DNA from: Faecalibacterium sp. An122
GTDB lineage: Bacteria; Bacillota; Clostridia; Oscillospirales; Ruminococcaceae
Assembly: GCF_002160895.1 (NCBI RefSeq)
Contig: NZ_NFLL01000001.1
Span: forward strand, 248,001-312,000
Reading direction: 5' to 3'
Length of the DNA stretch: 64,000 nucleotides
The stretch's first letter is position 1, and every line of letters begins with the position of its first letter. Below, piece by piece: positions 3,169 to 28,659 of this stretch. Under the pieces are notes generated by a model. It was not told the DNA's origin, made no database searches, and saw only the letters and a program-made list of their open reading frames with translations. Both the position numbers and the translations under genes were made by a program.

Positions 3169-3196
3169 TTGACAAGTAAAAAAAACATGGTACAAT
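3169..3196 (+). promoter_or_regulatory. Strong sigma-A promoter for structured RNA / polyamine operon
   Basis: TTGACA at 3169-3174 and TACAAT at 3191-3196, spaced by 16 bp, in an AT-rich context. Expected transcription start is about 3203. The stretch between the previous terminator and this promoter (3050-3168) shows no gene. The promoter lies almost 500 bases before the first polyamine gene, so the transcript has a very long leader. Confidence 0.8.
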
Positions 3197-3202
3197 GATG
3201 GC

Positions 3203-3564
3203 AAAGCGTGTACCGATGTACACACAAATAGATTAGGCCGGGCGCTCTTTTTGGGCTGCCTAAAGCTCATCGGACAGGGCTGGCCGCTGCCGCGTGTGGC
3301 GTAAAGCGCCACAACATTATTGAACGGGTGGGTCACCCGGAAATTTTATAAGTTGGTCACTTTTTATAACCTCGTGCGGACGCACACCACTTGTGAAACG
3401 TCAATAAGAGCAGCAGAACCGCCCCTCGATCTATTTGCTGAAGTTCTCTTCCAAAAGGCATGGCCGGACATTGCAGAATGTCGTCTCCTCTGTGTGATGA
3501 GGAGTCAGGCCGCCTCGACTGTATCTCACAGGCAGTGTGCCCGAAAGGGTGCGCTGCCTTTTTT
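3203..3564 (+). ncRNA. Candidate structured non-coding RNA or riboswitch-like leader upstream of the polyamine operon
   Basis: About 360 nt between a strong promoter and a strong intrinsic terminator, without a convincing reading frame. Hairpins visible by eye: GTGTAC/GTACAC (3208-3223, loop CGAT), TGTGGCG/CGCCACA (about 3295-3313), CGGGTG/CACCCG (about 3324-3338), GTGCG/GCAC (about 3375-3387), and a three-way junction in which 3457-3465 pairs with 3508-3514 and encloses two hairpins, GACATT/AATGTC (3467-3482) and CTCCTC/GAGGAG (3485-3504). It lacks the T-box core, the tmRNA and SRP signatures and the RNase P conserved blocks. It may be an independent small RNA, or a leader that controls read-through into speA. 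Confidence 0.55.
3531..3564 (+). terminator. Intrinsic terminator ending the structured leader RNA
   Basis: A 12-bp stem (3531-3542 with 3547-3558, three wobble pairs) capped by a GAAA tetraloop and followed by six T (3559-3564). The position between promoter and speA makes it an attenuator candidate. Confidence 0.85.
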
Positions 3565-3585
3565 GTTGCAGTCAGAAATGTCTTT

Positions 3586-3634
3586 CCGCCGGAGCATGGT
3601 TCCGTTTCAGACCATGCACAGGAGAATCCGGCGG
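3586..3634 (+). promoter_or_regulatory. Second leader hairpin just upstream of speA
   Basis: Two stacked stems: CCGCCGGA (3586-3593) with TCCGGCGG (3627-3634), and GCATGGT (3594-3600) with ACCATGC (3611-3617), leaving the 3' side bulge 3618-3626. It has no T tail, so it is not a terminator; it separates the attenuator-like terminator from the speA ribosome binding site. Role unknown. Confidence 0.5.
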
Positions 3635-3696
3635 CCCGTCCGGGATGGGAGCAGACTTCCGCTTGACTCAAAACCTGAAAAAGAGAGGGATGTTAT

Positions 3697-5145
3697 TTGA
3701 ACCGGGATCGTCAAAAAAGAGCGCCCATCTATGAGGCGCTGGAAAAGTTCCGCCGGCAGCGGGTCGTCCCGTTCGATGTGCCGGGCCATAAGCGCGGCCG
3801 CGGAAACCCCGAGCTGGTCGAACTGCTGGGGGAACGATGTGTCGGCATCGATGTCAACTCCATGAAACCTCTGGATAACCTGTGTCATCCGGTTTCAGTC
3901 ATCAAGGAGGCAGAGGAACTGGCCGCCGACGCATTCGGCGCGGCCCACGCCTTCCTGATGGTGGGCGGTACCACCAGCAGTGTCCAGAGCATGGTCCTGA
4001 CAGCCTGCAAGCCGGGGGACAAGATCATACTGCCCCGCAATGTCCACAAGAGCGCCATCAACGCCCTGGTTCTGTGCGGCGCGGTGCCCGTCTATATTGA
4101 TCCCAAGGTGGATACCGATCTGGGCATCCCTCTGGGTATGGAAGTGGAAGATGTGCGGGCCGCCATTGAGGCCAACCCCGATGCCGTGGCCATTTTTGTC
4201 AATAACCCCACCTATTACGGCATCTGCTCCGACCTGCGCAGTCTGGTGGATCTGGCTCACGCCCACAATATGCTGGCTCTGGTGGATGAAGCCCACGGCA
4301 CCCATCTGTATTTCAATCCCAGTCTGCCTCTCAGCGGCATGGCAGCCGGGGCCGATATGGCCGCCGTTTCCATGCACAAGTCGGGCGGCAGTCTGACCCA
4401 GAGTTCGCTCCTGCTCTGCGGGCCCGGGGTCAATGCGGGATATGTGAGCAATATCATCAACCTGACCCAGACCACCAGTGCATCCTATCTGCTGATGTCC
4501 AGTCTGGATATCAGCCGGCGCAATCTGGCCATGCGGGGCAGAGAGAGCTTCGCCCGCGTGATTGATATGGCCGAGTACGCCCGGCGGGAAATCAACGCCA
4601 TCGGCGATTACTATGCTTTCGGCTCCGAGATGATCAACGGCGGCAGCATTTACGACTTTGACGTCACCAAGCTGGCTGTCAATACCCGCGGCATTGGTCT
4701 GACCGGCATTGAGGTTTATGACCTGCTCCGGGACGAGTATGACATCCAGATTGAGTTTGGCGACCTGTCCAACATTCTGGCCTATATCTCCATCGGCGAC
4801 CGCATTCAGGATATTGAGCGTCTGGTGGGTGCTCTGGCGGATATCCGCCGCCTCTACTCCAAGCCCCGCAGCGATCTTTTCACGGCGGAGTACATCACGC
4901 CGCAGGTAAAGGCTACTCCCCAGCAGGCGTTCTATTCGCCCAAGGAGAGTTTGCCTTTGCGGGAAACCGCCGGCCGGATCTGCACAGAGTTTGTCATGTG
5001 CTATCCTCCGGGAATTCCCATCCTGGCTCCCGGCGAAGTGATTACCCCGGAAATCATCGATTACATCGAGTTCGCAAAGGCCAAGGGCTGCTCCATGCAG
5101 GGCCCGGCCAGCGAGGATATCTCGGAACTGAACGTTTTGGTATAA
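3697..5145 (+). CDS. speA: Arginine decarboxylase, fold-type I PLP enzyme (Orn/Lys/Arg decarboxylase class)
   Basis: Predicted to convert arginine to agmatine with release of CO2, the entry step of the operon. The 482-residue protein has the short Bacillus SpeA-type architecture: PLP-binding core with LVDEAHGTH, the lysine motif SMHKSGG (Lys about residue 228) followed by TQSS, and the C-terminal Orn/Lys/Arg decarboxylase domain. The start is TTG at 3697, chosen because GAGAGGG ends 6-7 bases before it and the next residues match the family N-terminus. Family members act on lysine, ornithine or arginine; the downstream agmatine deiminase and carbamoylputrescine amidase argue for arginine. It is the first gene of a tightly spaced operon preceded by an unusual structured leader. 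Confidence 0.9.
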   Translation: MNRDRQKRAPIYEALEKFRRQRVVPFDVPGHKRGRGNPELVELLGERCVGIDVNSMKPLDNLCHPVSVIKEAEELAADAFGAAHAFLMVGGTTSSVQSMVLTACKPGDKIILPRNVHKSAINALVLCGAVPVYIDPKVDTDLGIPLGMEVEDVRAAIEANPDAVAIFVNNPTYYGICSDLRSLVDLAHAHNMLALVDEAHGTHLYFNPSLPLSGMAAGADMAAVSMHKSGGSLTQSSLLLCGPGVNAGYVSNIINLTQTTSASYLLMSSLDISRRNLAMRGRESFARVIDMAEYARREINAIGDYYAFGSEMINGGSIYDFDVTKLAVNTRGIGLTGIEVYDLLRDEYDIQIEFGDLSNILAYISIGDRIQDIERLVGALADIRRLYSKPRSDLFTAEYITPQVKATPQQAFYSPKESLPLRETAGRICTEFVMCYPPGIPILAPGEVITPEIIDYIEFAKAKGCSMQGPASEDISELNVLV

Positions 5146-5171: not shown

Positions 5172-6035
5172 TTGCAGGAAATGGATTACTGGTTTGGCGA
5201 ACTGCATACCGCCAACGTCAAAACTTCCATTCGGGTGGACCGGCAGCTCTACAGCGGAACAAGCGACTTTCAGCGGATCGATGTCTTTGACTCGCCGGAG
5301 TTCGGACGGTTCCTGACTTCGGACGGCAGCGTGATCTTCTCGGAGAAAGACGAGTTCACCTACGACGAGATGATCGTCCACGTTCCTATGGCCGTTCACC
5401 CCGATGTCAAGCGGGTTCTGGTCATCGGCGGCGGAGACGGCGGCGTAGCCCGTGAGCTGTCGTATTACCAGGAGATCGAAGTCATCGATGTGGTGGAACC
5501 GGACAAAATGTTCGTGGATGTCTGCCGCAAATATTTCCCCGACAATGCCTGCGGTCTGGATGATATCCGCGTCCGCGTCTATTACGAGGACGGCCTGCGG
5601 TTTCTGCGGGGCAAAGAGGATGAATACGACCTGATCATCAACGACTGTACCGATCCTCTGGGCCATGCAGCCGGCCTGTTCACCAAGGAATTCTATGGCA
5701 GCTGCTACAAGGCCCTCCACGAGGACGGCATCATGGTGTATCAGCATGGCAGCCCCTTCTTTGATGAAGATGAGGAGACCTGCCGCGCCATGCACAAACG
5801 GGCTTACCGCTCGTTCCCCATCAGCCGGGTGTATCAGGCACACATCCCGACCTGCCCGGCGGGGTACTGGCTGTTTGGCTTTGCCAGCAAAAAGTATCAC
5901 CCCATCAAGGACTTTGACCCCAAGCGCTGGAACAAGCGGGGGATCAAGACCTGGTATTATACCACCCACCTCCATCGTGGAGCCTTCATGCTTCCGCGCT
6001 ATGTGGAGGACCTTCTGAAAGAAGAAGAAGACTGA
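5172..6035 (+). CDS. speE: Spermidine synthase family aminopropyltransferase
   Basis: 287-residue SpeE-like protein with the Rossmann methyltransferase fold: the N-terminal beta domain (FQRIDVFDSPEFGRFL), the nucleotide-binding loop GGGDGGVAREL and the substrate-site segment NDCTDPLGHAAGLF. Typical spermidine synthases have D-S-S/T-D-P followed by GPA; here it reads DCTDP and GHA, so the amine-binding loop is slightly unusual. Normal SpeE needs decarboxylated S-adenosylmethionine from SpeD, and no speD is present nearby. The start is TTG at 5172 with GAAGGAGGGAG about 6 bases upstream; an ATG at 5181 is too far from it. The gene is 26 bases after speA and 48 before the next gene. Its substrate in an operon that also has the carboxyspermidine route is open. 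Confidence 0.88.
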   Translation: MQEMDYWFGELHTANVKTSIRVDRQLYSGTSDFQRIDVFDSPEFGRFLTSDGSVIFSEKDEFTYDEMIVHVPMAVHPDVKRVLVIGGGDGGVARELSYYQEIEVIDVVEPDKMFVDVCRKYFPDNACGLDDIRVRVYYEDGLRFLRGKEDEYDLIINDCTDPLGHAAGLFTKEFYGSCYKALHEDGIMVYQHGSPFFDEDEETCRAMHKRAYRSFPISRVYQAHIPTCPAGYWLFGFASKKYHPIKDFDPKRWNKRGIKTWYYTTHLHRGAFMLPRYVEDLLKEEED

Positions 6036-6083
6036 AAACAGACGAAATCAAGAAACGGATTGTATTTGAAAGGAGCTATTTCC

Positions 6084-7346
6084 ATGAGCAAACTGCTTGT
6101 CATTGGCTGCGGCGGCGTCGCCTCGGTTGCGATCCAGAAGTGCTGCCAGAACCACGAGACTTTCACTGAGCTGTGCATTGCCAGCCGCACCGTCTCCAAG
6201 TGTGACGCCCTGAAGGCCAAGCTGGAGGCCGCCGGCACCCCCGTCAAGATCACCACCATGACCGTCAACGCCGACGATGTGGAGGACGTCAAGCGGGTGA
6301 TTGAGGCTTACAAGCCTGAGCTGGTTCTGAACGTGGCTCTGCCTTACCAGGATCTGACCATCATGGACGCCTGCCTGGCCTGCGGCGTTCACTATGTGGA
6401 TACCGCCAACTACGAGCCGGAAAACACCGACGATCCCGCCTGGCGCGCCATCTACGAGAAGCGCTGCAAGGAAGAGGGCTTCACCGCATACTTCGACTAC
6501 AGCTGGCAGTGGGCTTACGCCAAGAAGTTTGAGGAGGCTGGCCTGACCGCCATCCTGGGCTCCGGTTTCGACCCGGGTGTCACCAGCGTCTTCACTGCCT
6601 ATGCTCTGAAGCACTACTTCGATGAGATTCACACCATCGACATCCTGGACTGCAACGGCGGCGACCACGGCTATCCCTTCGCCACCAACTTCAACCCCGA
6701 GATCAATCTGCGTGAAGTTTCGGCCAACGGCAGCTACTGGGAGAACGGCCACTGGGTGGAGACCAAGCCCATGGAGATCAAGCGGGAATACGACTTCCCC
6801 CAGGTGGGCAAAAAGGATATGTATCTGCTCCACCACGAGGAGATCGAGAGCCTGGCCAAGAACGTCCCCTGCGTCAAGCGGATTCGCTTCTTCATGACCT
6901 TCGGCCAGAGCTATCTGACCCACATGAAGTGTCTGGAGAACGTGGGCATGCTCTCCACCAGCCCCATCCAGTTTGAGGGCCGCGAGATTGTGCCCATCCA
7001 GTTCCTGAAGGCTCTGTTGCCTGATCCCGCATCCCTGGGCCCCCGCACCGTCGGCAAGACCAACATCGGCTGCATCTACACCGGCGTCAAGGACGGCAAG
7101 GAGCGCACCATCTATATCTACAACGTCTGCGATCACCAGGAGTGCTACAAGGAGCTGGGCAGCCAGGCCATCAGCTACACCACCGGTGTTCCGGCCATGA
7201 TCGGCACTGCTCTGGTAGCCAATGGCCAGTGGCGTCAGCCCGGTGTCCACAACCTGGAGGAGATGGACCCCGATCCCTTTATGGAGATGCTGAACCAGTA
7301 CGGCCTGCCCTGGGTTGTGGATGAGCATCCTGTGACGGTGGAATGA
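6084..7346 (+). CDS. Carboxy(nor)spermidine dehydrogenase/synthase, saccharopine dehydrogenase family
   Basis: Predicted NADPH-dependent enzyme that condenses aspartate semialdehyde with putrescine (or diaminopropane) to carboxyspermidine (or carboxynorspermidine). The 420-residue protein begins with a Rossmann motif, LLVIGCGGVAS, and has the saccharopine dehydrogenase pattern throughout (NVALPYQDL, YVDTANYE, GSGFDPGVTS). The start at 6084 follows AAGGAG by 8 bases; an upstream in-frame ATG at 6060 lacks a ribosome binding site. The stop overlaps the start of the next gene in an ATGA arrangement, so the dehydrogenase and the decarboxylase are translationally coupled. The assignment over saccharopine dehydrogenase rests mainly on this coupling. 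Aspartate semialdehyde could come from Asd at 21409. Confidence 0.88.
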   Translation: MSKLLVIGCGGVASVAIQKCCQNHETFTELCIASRTVSKCDALKAKLEAAGTPVKITTMTVNADDVEDVKRVIEAYKPELVLNVALPYQDLTIMDACLACGVHYVDTANYEPENTDDPAWRAIYEKRCKEEGFTAYFDYSWQWAYAKKFEEAGLTAILGSGFDPGVTSVFTAYALKHYFDEIHTIDILDCNGGDHGYPFATNFNPEINLREVSANGSYWENGHWVETKPMEIKREYDFPQVGKKDMYLLHHEEIESLAKNVPCVKRIRFFMTFGQSYLTHMKCLENVGMLSTSPIQFEGREIVPIQFLKALLPDPASLGPRTVGKTNIGCIYTGVKDGKERTIYIYNVCDHQECYKELGSQAISYTTGVPAMIGTALVANGQWRQPGVHNLEEMDPDPFMEMLNQYGLPWVVDEHPVTVE

Positions 7347-8494
7347 TGGAGCATTTGAAACGGCATGAACCCGGGCTGCAGACACCGGTCTATGTGGTGG
7401 ACGAGACAGCTCTGGTTCACAACCTGGAAATTCTGCAGGGGGTACAGCAGCGTACAGGCTGCCATATTCTGCTGGCCCAGAAAGCTTTCTCCATGTTCCG
7501 GGTTTATCCGCTGATTGGGCAGTATCTGGCAGGCGCCACCGCCAGCGGCCTCTTCGAGGCCCGGCTGGCCCACGAGGAAATGCCCGGCAGGGAAAACCAT
7601 GTTTTCTGCCCGGCCTATACCCCGGAAGAAATGGAAGAGATTGTACAGATCTGCGACCATATCAGCTTTAATTCGCTCGCTCAGCTGGAGGCACACCGTC
7701 CGGTCTGGGAAAAGGCGGGTGTCAGCGTCGGCCTGCGGGTCAACCCGGAGCACTCCACCCAGGAAGGCCACGCCATCTACGATCCCTGTGCACCGGGCAG
7801 CCGGCTGGGCATCCGCCGGCAGAATCTGCCGGACCAGCTGCCAAAAGGGGTGGAGGGACTGCATTTCCACACCCTGTGTGAGCAGGACGCTGCCCCTCTG
7901 GTGGAGACCTTTGCCGCCTTTGAGGAAAAGTTCGGGCAGTATCTGCCGGGGCTGAAGTGGATCAATCTGGGCGGCGGGCACCACATCACACGCCCGGGCT
8001 ATGACATTGCCGCCCTGGAACAGCTGATCCTTTCCATCCGGGAAAAGTACGTTCTGGAAGTTTATCTGGAACCGGGGGAGGCCATCGCCCTTTCGGCCGG
8101 CACCCTGATTACCACCGTGCTGGACATTGTACAGGCCACCGATATGCCTGTCCTGATTCTGGACACCTCGGCGGCTTGTCACATGCCCGACGTGCTGGAA
8201 ATGCCCTATCGTCCGCCCCTGTACGACAGCGGACTGCCGGGCGAAAAGGCATGTACCTGCCGTCTGGCATCCCGGACCTGCCTGGCCGGAGATGTCATCG
8301 GCGAATACAGCTTTGATTCCTGCCCCCAGATTGGGGACAGGCTGGTTTTTGGCGATATGGCGATTTATTCCATGGTGAAAAACAACACTTTCAATGGAAT
8401 GCCGCTGCCGGATATTGCGCTGCGCCATCTGGATGGCAGCTGCGAGGTAGTGCGCCATTTCGGCTATCAGGATTTCAAAACGCGTCTGTCCTGA
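7343..8494 (+). CDS. nspC: Carboxynorspermidine/carboxyspermidine decarboxylase
   Basis: 383-residue PLP enzyme of the alanine-racemase-fold decarboxylase group, which removes the carboxyl group from carboxyspermidine to give spermidine (or norspermidine). Visible features are the PLP lysine in LAQKAFSM (Lys about residue 47), the glycine loop NLGGGHHITRPGYD, and the LEPGEA segment near residue 255. The start overlaps the stop of the dehydrogenase by four bases (ATGA). With the preceding gene it forms the SpeD-independent spermidine pathway known from Vibrio and many gut bacteria. Length and motifs agree with the family; whether the natural substrate is the spermidine or norspermidine form cannot be read from sequence. 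Confidence 0.92.
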   Translation: MMEHLKRHEPGLQTPVYVVDETALVHNLEILQGVQQRTGCHILLAQKAFSMFRVYPLIGQYLAGATASGLFEARLAHEEMPGRENHVFCPAYTPEEMEEIVQICDHISFNSLAQLEAHRPVWEKAGVSVGLRVNPEHSTQEGHAIYDPCAPGSRLGIRRQNLPDQLPKGVEGLHFHTLCEQDAAPLVETFAAFEEKFGQYLPGLKWINLGGGHHITRPGYDIAALEQLILSIREKYVLEVYLEPGEAIALSAGTLITTVLDIVQATDMPVLILDTSAACHMPDVLEMPYRPPLYDSGLPGEKACTCRLASRTCLAGDVIGEYSFDSCPQIGDRLVFGDMAIYSMVKNNTFNGMPLPDIALRHLDGSCEVVRHFGYQDFKTRLS

Positions 8495-8515
8495 CGCGGT
8501 CCAAAGGAGTTTTCT

Positions 8516-9592
8516 ATGTACAGAATGCCGGCTGAATACGAGCCGCACCGCGCAACACTGATGATCTGGCCGGTACGCCCGGGCAGCTGGGGAAAAGATC
8601 CTCAGGCTGCACAGGACGCCTTTGTGCGGGTCTTTGAAGCCATCACCCAGAGTGAAGATCTTTATCTCTTGGCTGATCCGGACCATTTGGAGCAGGCCCG
8701 CGCTGCAGTGGCGCATTTAGATCGGGTGCACCTGATCTGCATGGATTCCAATGATGCCTGGGCGCGGGATGTTGGGCCTACCTTCGTCAAAAATGACAGG
8801 GGAGAGCTCAAGGGCATCAGCTGGAGCTTCAACGCCTGGGGCGGTACGGTTGACGGCCTCTATGCCGACTGGCAAAAAGACGACGCCATTGCGTCCGCCT
8901 TTTGTCAGGAACTGGGTTTGCCCTGGGACGATGCGGCTCCGTTTGTACTGGAGGGCGGCAGCATTCATACCGACGGCGAGGGGACCGCTCTCGTCACCGA
9001 GAGCTGCCTGCTTTCGGCCGGGCGGAATCCGTCCATGAGCCGCGAGGAAATCGAGGCAGAACTTTGCCGCCGTCTGGGAGTCGAGAAAGTGTTGTGGCTG
9101 CCGCGGGGCATTTACAACGACGAGACCAACGAGCACGTGGACAATGTCTGCGCTTTTGTCGCCCCTGGCGAGGTAGTTCTGGCCTGGACCGACAACGAAT
9201 CCGACCCGCAATACCCGCTTTCTGCCGCAGATCTGGCTTATCTGCAGAGTGCAACCGATGCCAAAGGGCGGTCTTTAAAGATTCACAAGCTGCCCATCCC
9301 GGATCAGCCCATCCTCTGCAGCGAGGAGGACTGCGCATCCTATTCGTTTGAACCGGGTGAGGACATTCGCGAGCCAGGGGAGCGCCTGGCGGCCAGCTAT
9401 GTGAATTTCTATTTCACCAACGGCGCCGTTCTGGTTCCTCAGTTCGGGGGCGAAAACGCCGCCAGCGACGCCCGCGCCTGCAAGATCCTGCAGCAGCTTT
9501 GCCCAAACCGTCAGGTTATCGGTCTGCCTGCGCGGGAAATCCTGCAGGGCGGGGGAAACATCCACTGCATTACACAGCAGATTCCGCTGTAA
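8516..9592 (+). CDS. aguA: Agmatine deiminase
   Basis: Hydrolyses agmatine to N-carbamoylputrescine and ammonia. The 358-residue protein has the peptidyl-arginine-deiminase-type (PPAD) fold: N-terminal MPAEYEPHRATLMIWP, the substrate segment NDAWARDVGP, the Asp/His part NEHVDNVC, and the catalytic cysteine in GGGNIHC (about residue 351). AAAGGAG lies 9 bases upstream of the ATG. It is 21 bases downstream of nspC and 15 upstream of aguB, well inside the operon. It links arginine decarboxylase to putrescine formation. Confidence 0.95.
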   Translation: MYRMPAEYEPHRATLMIWPVRPGSWGKDPQAAQDAFVRVFEAITQSEDLYLLADPDHLEQARAAVAHLDRVHLICMDSNDAWARDVGPTFVKNDRGELKGISWSFNAWGGTVDGLYADWQKDDAIASAFCQELGLPWDDAAPFVLEGGSIHTDGEGTALVTESCLLSAGRNPSMSREEIEAELCRRLGVEKVLWLPRGIYNDETNEHVDNVCAFVAPGEVVLAWTDNESDPQYPLSAADLAYLQSATDAKGRSLKIHKLPIPDQPILCSEEDCASYSFEPGEDIREPGERLAASYVNFYFTNGAVLVPQFGGENAASDARACKILQQLCPNRQVIGLPAREILQGGGNIHCITQQIPL

Positions 9593-9607
9593 AAGGAGGG
9601 AATATCC

Positions 9608-10489
9608 ATGCCACAGACCACTGTTGCGGCCATTCAGATGACCTGCTGCGCCGATCCGGCCCAGAACATCGCACACGCCGAGGAACTGGTGCGTCAGGCC
9701 GCCGCCAAAGGGGCACAGATTGTTCTGCTGCCCGAATTGTTCGAGCGGCCTTACTTCTGCCAGGAGCGCCGCTATGAATACTACGATTATGCGCTGCCCA
9801 TGGAAGAAAATCCGGCGATTCAGCGTTTTTCTGAGGTGTGCCGTGAACTGGAGCTGGTGATGCCCATCAGCTTTTACGAAAAGGACGGCACACGCCTGTT
9901 CAACAGCGTCGCCATGCTGGACGCAGACGGCAGCATCCTGGGTATTTATCGAAAGACCCACATCCCGGACGACCACTATTATCAGGAGAAATTTTATTTT
10001 ACCCCCGGAAACACCGATTTTCAGGTGTTCGATACACAGTATGGCCGGGTAGGCGTGGGCATCTGCTGGGATCAGTGGTTCCCGGAGACGGCCCGCTGCC
10101 TGGCACTGGCCGGGGCTGACATCATCTTGTATCCAACAGCAATCGGCAGTGAACCCATCCTGGATGTGGACAGTGCCGGTCACTGGCAGCGGACCATGCA
10201 GGGACATTCGGCAGCCAACATTATGCCGGTCGCTGCGGCAAACCGCTACGGAACCGAAGTGGTCACGCCGTGCAGGGAAAATGGCGGCCAGCAGAGCGCA
10301 CTGCGGTTTTACGGTACCAGCTTCTTGACGGATGAGACGGGAGCTGTCATTCAGCAGGCCGGCCGGGACGAAGACGCCGTCCTGACCGCAAGCTATGACT
10401 TTGCGGCCATTCGGCAGGCCCGTCTGGAATGGGGCTTGTTCCGGGACCGCCGGCCTGAGTGTTACGGTGCCATTTGTGATCTGGATTGA
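9608..10489 (+). CDS. aguB: N-carbamoylputrescine amidase
   Basis: Nitrilase-superfamily amidohydrolase of 293 residues that splits N-carbamoylputrescine into putrescine, CO2 and ammonia. The catalytic triad is visible: Glu43 in LLPELFE, Lys116 in YRKTHIPD and Cys153 in GVGICWDQWFPE. AAAGGAGGG precedes the ATG by about 8 bases. It is the last gene of the operon; a terminator follows 50 bases later. Together with SpeA and AguA it completes arginine to putrescine, the amine acceptor for the carboxyspermidine route encoded by the earlier genes. Confidence 0.95.
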   Translation: MPQTTVAAIQMTCCADPAQNIAHAEELVRQAAAKGAQIVLLPELFERPYFCQERRYEYYDYALPMEENPAIQRFSEVCRELELVMPISFYEKDGTRLFNSVAMLDADGSILGIYRKTHIPDDHYYQEKFYFTPGNTDFQVFDTQYGRVGVGICWDQWFPETARCLALAGADIILYPTAIGSEPILDVDSAGHWQRTMQGHSAANIMPVAAANRYGTEVVTPCRENGGQQSALRFYGTSFLTDETGAVIQQAGRDEDAVLTASYDFAAIRQARLEWGLFRDRRPECYGAICDLD

Positions 10490-28339: not shown

Positions 28340-28659
28340 CTGTGTCTCACTTCGGGCAGAGGGCAAAAAGAAACACCCTCCGCCAACCTTAAAATTGGCA
28401 GAGGGCGAGAAATTCGCGGTACCACCTCTGTTTGCTGCCCCCTCACGGATGACAGCCTCACAAGTGCAACCCCCTCAGAGTATAGGAGTACACTCTGCGT
28501 CTATAACGCTCGCACGCGGCGGGGCCTACTGAGACAACATCTGTTCAGCCTGCAGCTCCGGGAGGTAGTTCGCCTGCGGCTCTGCACACCCCTTTCACCA
28601 ACCGGGGCCTCTCTGGGCAGAGTGCATCAGGGTACTTGTTCCCATCAACGCCTTTACAA
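28340..28659 (-). promoter_or_regulatory. Tyrosine T-box riboswitch upstream of tyrS
   Basis: The minus strand carries the T-box core AGGTGGTACCGCG (28415-28427) and a competing terminator (stem about 28374-28406, T-rich tail to about 28366). Stem I shows the AGTA bulge and the specifier-loop context GAACTAC; the specifier codon is TAC (complement at 28565-28567), which is tyrosine and agrees with the downstream gene. Uncharged tRNA-Tyr should stabilise the antiterminator and allow tyrS transcription. Confidence 0.95.

Follow-up and report, generated by a model that had tools for sequence, protein, structure and literature searches.

The leader of the polyamine operon in the window (the whole stretch of 64,000 nucleotides analysed here) belongs, as judged from sequence comparison, to a family of large folded RNAs that many Firmicutes carry ahead of genes for polyamine synthesis or import. 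The family with its helices, the genes that follow it, its terminators and a mutually exclusive pairing were established by computation. We propose that the leader is probably a riboswitch-type transcription attenuator, which would sense a polyamine, most likely spermidine, and turn the operon off.

The leader, its relatives and their gene partners

The operon starts with a speA-like gene, whose TTG start at 3697 is preceded by a leader of about 490 nt. The promoter and the genes are as follows.

3169..3196, + strand: sigma-70 type promoter, TTGACA (3169-3174), 16-nt spacer and TACAAT (3191-3196), 11 of 12 consensus matches
3697..5145, + strand: speA-like basic amino-acid decarboxylase, TTG start, first operon gene; decarboxylase models matched, all below their cut-offs
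5172..10489, + strand: remaining polyamine operon, speE, carboxynorspermidine synthase-like, nspC, aguA and aguB (NCBIfam)

An NCBIfam model above its cut-off was found for each of speE, nspC, aguA and aguB, and the carboxynorspermidine synthase-like match, at 407 bits, was under its curated cut-off. At 5172-8494, speE lies beside the carboxynorspermidine synthase/nspC pair, placing two triamine routes next to each other; speD is absent among the six operon genes.

The near-consensus promoter and the highly structured RNA that the initial annotation had described were both supported. The promoter was in place in all nine leaders of the window's subtype in the genus (the window and eight relatives, one of them with TAAAAT), and shuffled sequences held a mean of 0.5 sites as good. 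The predicted fold of the leader had an energy of -140.6 kcal/mol vs -118.2 ± 6.0 kcal/mol for the shuffles (z = -3.7), and none of 100 shuffles equalled it. The conserved portion in the nine leaders comprised 3208-3437 and 3526-3564. Two further elements proposed at first were not conserved: the three-way junction at 3457-3514 varied in sequence and length among these leaders, and the second hairpin at 3586-3634 was shortened in L003 and L004 and absent in L005-L009.

The covariance model R1 matched the window at 3234-3421 with 74.2 bits (E = 2.1e-19), the sole match in the 64 kb and a single copy in the whole genome. The 35 sequences behind R1 included none of the window's subtype. Since one of them was a canonical copy from the same genus (L017 of genome G005), a second model, R2, was built from 14 loci labelled outside the window's order (Paenibacillus, Bacillus, other Bacilli, Lachnospiraceae, Blautia, Hungatella, Merdimonas, Clostridium or Acidaminococcus). 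R2 matched at 3235-3421 with 66.8 bits (E = 2.6e-16), again the sole match in the window. BLAST of 3180-3566 against 61 genomes found eight close relatives at full length and others through the core or the terminator only, and the core matches stood before speA, speD-speA or potA. Two genus members with a terminator match only (L016 and L020) were excluded from the family; both carry at 1501-1543 a 40-nt near-copy of the window terminator (86% and 84%), ahead of a gene which, from the start of its protein, we take to be acetolactate-synthase-like.

A scan of public bacterial genomes with an exact pattern derived from the core gave at least 118 loci, of which eight were dropped as too close to a contig end; the pattern was the source of 110 of the 128 loci analysed below. 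Bacillus, Paenibacillus, Streptococcus, Acidaminococcus, Blautia, Sporobacter and many Clostridia were among the 80 titles listed. The RNA was found in 27 of 31 genomes of the window's genus (21 of 22 good genomes), in at least 88 of 345 genomes of its order and in at least 23 of 398 of its phylum, the latter two counts being lower bounds because stricter filters were used. The covariance model found 77 loci, 55 with the exact pattern and 22 without it, and TTTATAAG was present near the core in 66 of them. Comparison with relatives, a check proposed in the initial annotation, thus found conserved, covarying structure upstream of speA and not its absence.

The first recognised downstream gene in the 128 loci listed encoded SpeA in 74, carboxy(nor)spermidine synthase in 23, SpeD in 18 and PotA in five; the eight loci with no recognised gene have just 109-380 nt of downstream DNA. 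Partners were recognised by BLAST against eight polyamine proteins and begin 60-488 nt past the core motif. A polyamine gene was also next in all 77 loci of the genome search (73 and 4, assigned in two rounds), which overlap partly with each other and with the 128. In four Bacilli-type loci (L028, L046, L050 and L113) the operon consists of the synthase and nspC, and L106 is similar. The steady link to genes of one metabolite that is expected of a riboswitch was therefore observed in 120 of 128 loci.

All four gene contexts share spermidine as product or cargo, and the step shared by the synthase-nspC, speA, speD and speE routes and the importer would be the spermidine pool. Polyamines are abundant and bind RNA. 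Of the ligands suggested initially, a polyamine fits these partners; arginine and agmatine are poor fits, since neither is used by the carboxyspermidine synthase-nspC pair that follows the RNA in Bacilli. The same attenuator might respond instead to putrescine, agmatine, or an acetylated or carboxylated polyamine, or its subtypes might sense different polyamines. PotABCD-type importers carry putrescine too, and the divergent subtype seen in nine of the 27 RNA-bearing genomes of the genus could mean a shifted specificity. However, the Bacilli operon just mentioned involves neither arginine nor agmatine, and putrescine is a substrate in it, so that feedback by putrescine would be odd. We consider this alternative rather unlikely and retain spermidine as the best candidate.

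Predicted aptamer structure and covariation

The RNA is about 213 nt long, with helices P1-P10. Its elements in the window are listed below.

3208..3223, + strand: P0, 5' hairpin ahead of the aptamer; compatible changes within the genus subtype (read by eye)
3225..3437, + strand: P1, outer stem of 3225-3233 with 3429-3437, closes the aptamer domain
3234..3421, + strand: aptamer domain (covariance models R1 and R2)
3236..3285, + strand: P2, 3236-3239 with 3282-3285, encloses P3 and P4
3240..3261, + strand: P3, 3240-3247 with 3253-3261
3264..3281, + strand: P4, 3264-3268 with 3277-3281
3271..3292, + strand: proposed pseudoknot, P4 loop CGGACA (3271-3276) with TGCCG (3288-3292); hardly varies
3296..3312, + strand: P5, hairpin of 3296-3301 with 3307-3312; two-sided changes in six of six pairs
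3317..3407, + strand: P6, TTATTGA (3317-3323) with TCAATAA (3401-3407), encloses P7 and P8; near-invariant, 98.8% of cells paired
3325..3339, + strand: P7, hairpin with long loop insertions in some relatives
3345..3397, + strand: P8, TTTATAAG (3345-3352) with CTTGTGAA (3390-3397); 100% paired, almost invariant
3355..3371, + strand: P9, 3355-3357 with 3369-3371, inside P8; covaries
3374..3385, + strand: P10, 3374-3377 with 3382-3385, inside P8; covaries

RNAalifold on the raw MAFFT alignment of 50 sequences (A2, the window and 49 hand-picked from 105 non-redundant loci) found P3, P6, P7 and P8 only. The structure was therefore set by hand from one Paenibacillus sequence and then tested by pair counts. 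Before the model was made, the window, L003, L005, L008 and L133 were left out of A2 on account of their subtype and L034, L053, L067, L118 and L131 as odd; L024, L039, L059, L078 and L104 were left out as odd before the alignment A3. In A3, 92.3% of the cells held standard pairs, vs 33.7-45.3% for slid structures. Two-sided changes were observed in 22 of 54 pairs, compared with 9.7 ± 1.9 in the shuffles, none of 500 reaching the observed number. An alignment of 101 rows from 100 sources (the window and 99 of 138 loci), which restores all 15 sequences left out earlier and, being aligned to the model, leans to the structure, showed two-sided changes in 31 of 48 pairs vs 24.2 ± 1.6 in the shuffles (0 of 500). 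The flanking strands of P1 paired better with their own partner (-17.1 kcal/mol) than with swapped ones (-13.6 kcal/mol), the own pairing being better in 79 of 96 loci.

Covariation cannot test P6, P8 and the pseudoknot because these hardly vary; they are predicted from their conservation, and P6 and P8 also from RNAalifold. The invariance of P6 and P8 is partly selected, as their 3' strands were in the exact search pattern that supplied most loci; their 5' strands were outside it. Among the 50 aligned sequences, which come from several classes, 26 columns were invariant and 48 nearly so, part of this invariance likewise being selected by the pattern. As in riboswitches, a conserved, covarying domain was found in the 5' leader.

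The leader might also bind a polyamine-responsive regulatory protein, with the RNA itself binding no metabolite. Large RNAs can serve as protein sites, and ligand binding by this RNA is putative. The number of invariant and near-invariant columns, even if partly selected, argues against a protein site, such size and conservation being typical of metabolite aptamers, and the six operon proteins named in the window include no regulator. We regard a protein partner as improbable. Either a protein or another polyamine could nevertheless be the signal.

Ribosome-dependent attenuation through a leader peptide, as in enterobacterial speF, is a different mechanism, and such control is described for polyamine genes in other bacteria (PMC6386406, PMC7815308). 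A conserved upstream reading frame was looked for over the conserved 135 nt in 97 loci and none was found: the three frames were closed in 90, 96 and 95 of the 97, and the spacing from TATTGA to CTTGTG fell in all three phases (42, 31 and 22 loci). We give this mechanism almost no credence for the present family. The speF and odc1 leaders and the potE motif resemble the RNA described here as cases of RNA control of polyamine genes (PMC6386406, PMC8632094, PMC7815308). As described in these sources, speF and odc1 involve upstream reading frames, whereas none is conserved here, and the potE motif was rated a weak candidate by its authors.

Terminator, antiterminator and the proposed switch

The aptamer is followed by an intrinsic terminator, whose 5' arm overlaps a strand complementary to the aptamer core.

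3382..3396, + strand: antiterminator strand 1, GCACAC (3382-3387) and CTTGTGA (3390-3396), the 3' halves of P10 and P8
3526..3540, + strand: antiterminator strand 2, TCACAGG (3526-3532) and GTGTGC (3535-3540), overlaps the terminator 5' arm
3530..3564, + strand: intrinsic terminator, 13-bp stem of 3530-3542 with 3547-3559, GAAA loop, six T

The strong GAAA-capped terminator noted initially was confirmed in these terms and was present in all nine leaders of the genus subtype. Across the family, an intrinsic terminator was found downstream in 115 of 120 leaders, a count made without a shuffled control; one of the five misses (L006) was due to a short scanned stretch, and the genus alignment shows its terminator. 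The window terminator was also considered as a repeat element, and this was rejected, as a search allowing up to three mismatches found a single copy in the genome.

In the genus subtype, 13 pairs at -20.0 kcal/mol join GCACACCACTTGTGA of P10/P8 to TCACAGGCAGTGTGC, which overlaps the terminator 5' arm. When the terminator 5' arm of each leader was placed at successive positions of its own aptamer, pairing was best at the P10/P8 3' strand in 51 of 88 non-redundant leaders, vs 2-8 of 88 in ten sets of shuffled arms, two of 88 with the 3' arms and six of 85 with pre-terminator segments. The sharing of an aptamer strand with the expression platform, another riboswitch property, was thus observed well above its controls. 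The mean energy between arm and aptamer was -11 to -12 at the P10/P8 strand vs -4 to -9 elsewhere. Against dinucleotide-shuffled arms, just 24 of 88 leaders were individually unlikely at 5% (mean z = -1.2). A leader's own arm paired at -13.1 kcal/mol and swapped arms at -11.2 kcal/mol, the own arm being better in 64 of 88; a weaker contrast is expected from swapping because the P8 strand is nearly invariant. A pairing of P3 with the terminator was also considered and was dropped, P3 being variable among the genus-subtype leaders.

Since the terminator arm pairs with the P10/P8 3' strand, aptamer folding and antitermination are mutually exclusive. Transcription would start near 3203. At low spermidine, 3382-3396 (the P10 and P8 3' strands) would pair with 3526-3540 and hold the terminator 5' arm, and the polymerase would continue into speA. 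When spermidine is plentiful, it would bind the P6-P7-P8 core and lock P8 and P10, which would release the terminator arm and stop transcription at 3564. Because P8 and the antiterminator exclude each other, a P8 stabilised by its ligand would mean termination, that is, an OFF switch. Direct binding of the ligand, its identity as spermidine and the direction of switching are what we infer here. In the window, the calculated gap between the aptamer and antiterminator states was 2.5 kcal/mol without the complete terminator and 5.6 kcal/mol with it, which would be a plausible balance for a switch. The unconstrained minimum-energy fold of the window lacked the aptamer P8, and the constrained aptamer state was 1.5 to 2.1 kcal/mol worse. 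Hence, the ligand-responsive attenuator suggested in the initial annotation gained support from the covarying RNA, the frequent terminators and the complementarity of the terminator arm to the aptamer core, with a ligand that is putative.

Known RNAs and variants of the family

An Rfam search of the window and the leader for known or housekeeping RNAs gave no family at cut-off in the leader, and the matches at E up to 10 (ncS54, PYLIS_2 and U6atac, E = 2.7-7.1) were taken as chance. For the window copy the initial statement that no known family was recognised therefore holds, RF02440 giving no match there at cut-off or at E up to 10. It does not hold for the relatives: RF02440 (SpF59_sRNA, ldcC RNA), a 54-nt model, matched inside this leader in eight of 11 tested loci, above 37.2 bits, with no match in L003 and L008, which are of the window's subtype, and L010. 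RF02440 would thus be the same RNA. It differs in covering just the P2-P4 domain, corresponding to 3236..3292 in the window, which is a part missing from some family members, and in its classification, which is that of an sRNA and not of a polyamine-gene attenuator.

The pneumococcal RNA is presumably a member of this family, as we infer because RF02440 bears its name and matches loci in our set; the Streptococcus loci L024 and L065 precede speA. In the pneumococcus, the gap between SP0915 and SP0916 is reported to hold a transcript, SN20, of 318 nt by the published table, with a predicted promoter and terminator (PMC2887815). SN20 is also given as F59 (PMC3395615) and as srn235 and Spd_sr49, for which a 2025 table of sRNA candidates lists matches in 385 genomes (PMC12323649). 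SP_0916 is described as arginine decarboxylase, speA (PMC7531197). When potABCD was deleted and polyamines were lowered, speA was reported to increase 16.9-fold and speE 14.4-fold by qRT-PCR; in the RNA-seq of that study, the change in speA and speE was not seen (PMC8540371).

This pneumococcal product bears on a further possibility, namely an independent, trans-acting small RNA that lies before polyamine genes by chance. It was detected, is listed as an sRNA (F59/SN20/srn235), and is tied to lung fitness in a review table (PMC4387999). Such an RNA is at odds with the polyamine gene on the same strand being next in 120 of 128 loci, the other eight being short of DNA, and with the better fit of the terminator arm to its own aptamer strand than to those of others (64 of 88). 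We judge a chance neighbour highly improbable and return to the attenuator.

In the literature searched, a SAM-I variant was the only polyamine riboswitch class found; the "ldcC motif" may be published beyond that scope. A 2017 survey reportedly contains 224 candidate RNAs. The SAM-I-variant spermidine riboswitch, with 13 examples reported, resembles the present RNA in preceding Gram-positive polyamine genes and is described as an OFF switch acting by transcription termination, with which the predicted architecture of our leader is compatible; its authors state that further classes seem certain to exist (PMC10853860). It differs in having, as described, the four-stem junction of SAM-I, whereas the helix layout here is another one, and no Rfam match to the SAM family was found in the tested leaders.

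On balance we favour the view that the family is a second spermidine (polyamine) riboswitch class, structurally unrelated to the first and far more widespread, and that many Firmicutes, gut commensals and streptococci among them, may rely on it as their main sensor for polyamine feedback. The invariant P8 strand would serve both as binding core and as antiterminator, and the window's subtype may have a shifted specificity. The RNA would have escaped notice because the part catalogued, as an sRNA, is only a dispensable piece of 54 nt. If true, this would account for the way in which many Firmicutes switch off the making and the import of polyamines, and an RNA that has been on lists of pneumococcal sRNAs since 2010 would gain a function. 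The family is a concrete candidate of wide distribution, whose core is defined and which lends itself readily to a transcription assay.

T-box leaders are likewise large Firmicute leaders with a terminator and an antiterminator. No T-box match was found in the speA leader; the sole one in the window is a T-box leader at 28398-28657 on the minus strand (103 bits), which precedes an open frame that, from the start of its protein, presumably encodes a tyrosyl-tRNA synthetase.

Within the genus, nine of the 27 RNA-bearing genomes carry the divergent subtype of the window (L001-L009) and 18 the canonical one (L017-L019 and L162-L178). The window's subtype differs in P2, P4, one base before TCAATAA and the joining segment after P6. 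It scored 64-75 bits and the others 115-171 bits, with the exception of one canonical copy at 73.9 bits that is split by an insertion. A change of ligand or of expression platform between the subtypes is possible.

Size variants were also observed. At most 26 of 97 non-redundant loci lacked the P2-P4 domain, an upper figure because the crude motif test used also catches variants that keep it; L035, L036, L044 and L088 are clear short forms. P7-loop insertions of roughly 100-170 nt split the model match in L099 (5208-5555) and L181, with the core kept on both sides. A tandem pair was considered for L099 and G003 and rejected, each being a single RNA with a long P7 insertion; G003 reads as canonical with an insertion. 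In L032, before speD, the P6 and P8' motifs are present with almost no P7-P8 domain, possibly a degenerate or minimal form.
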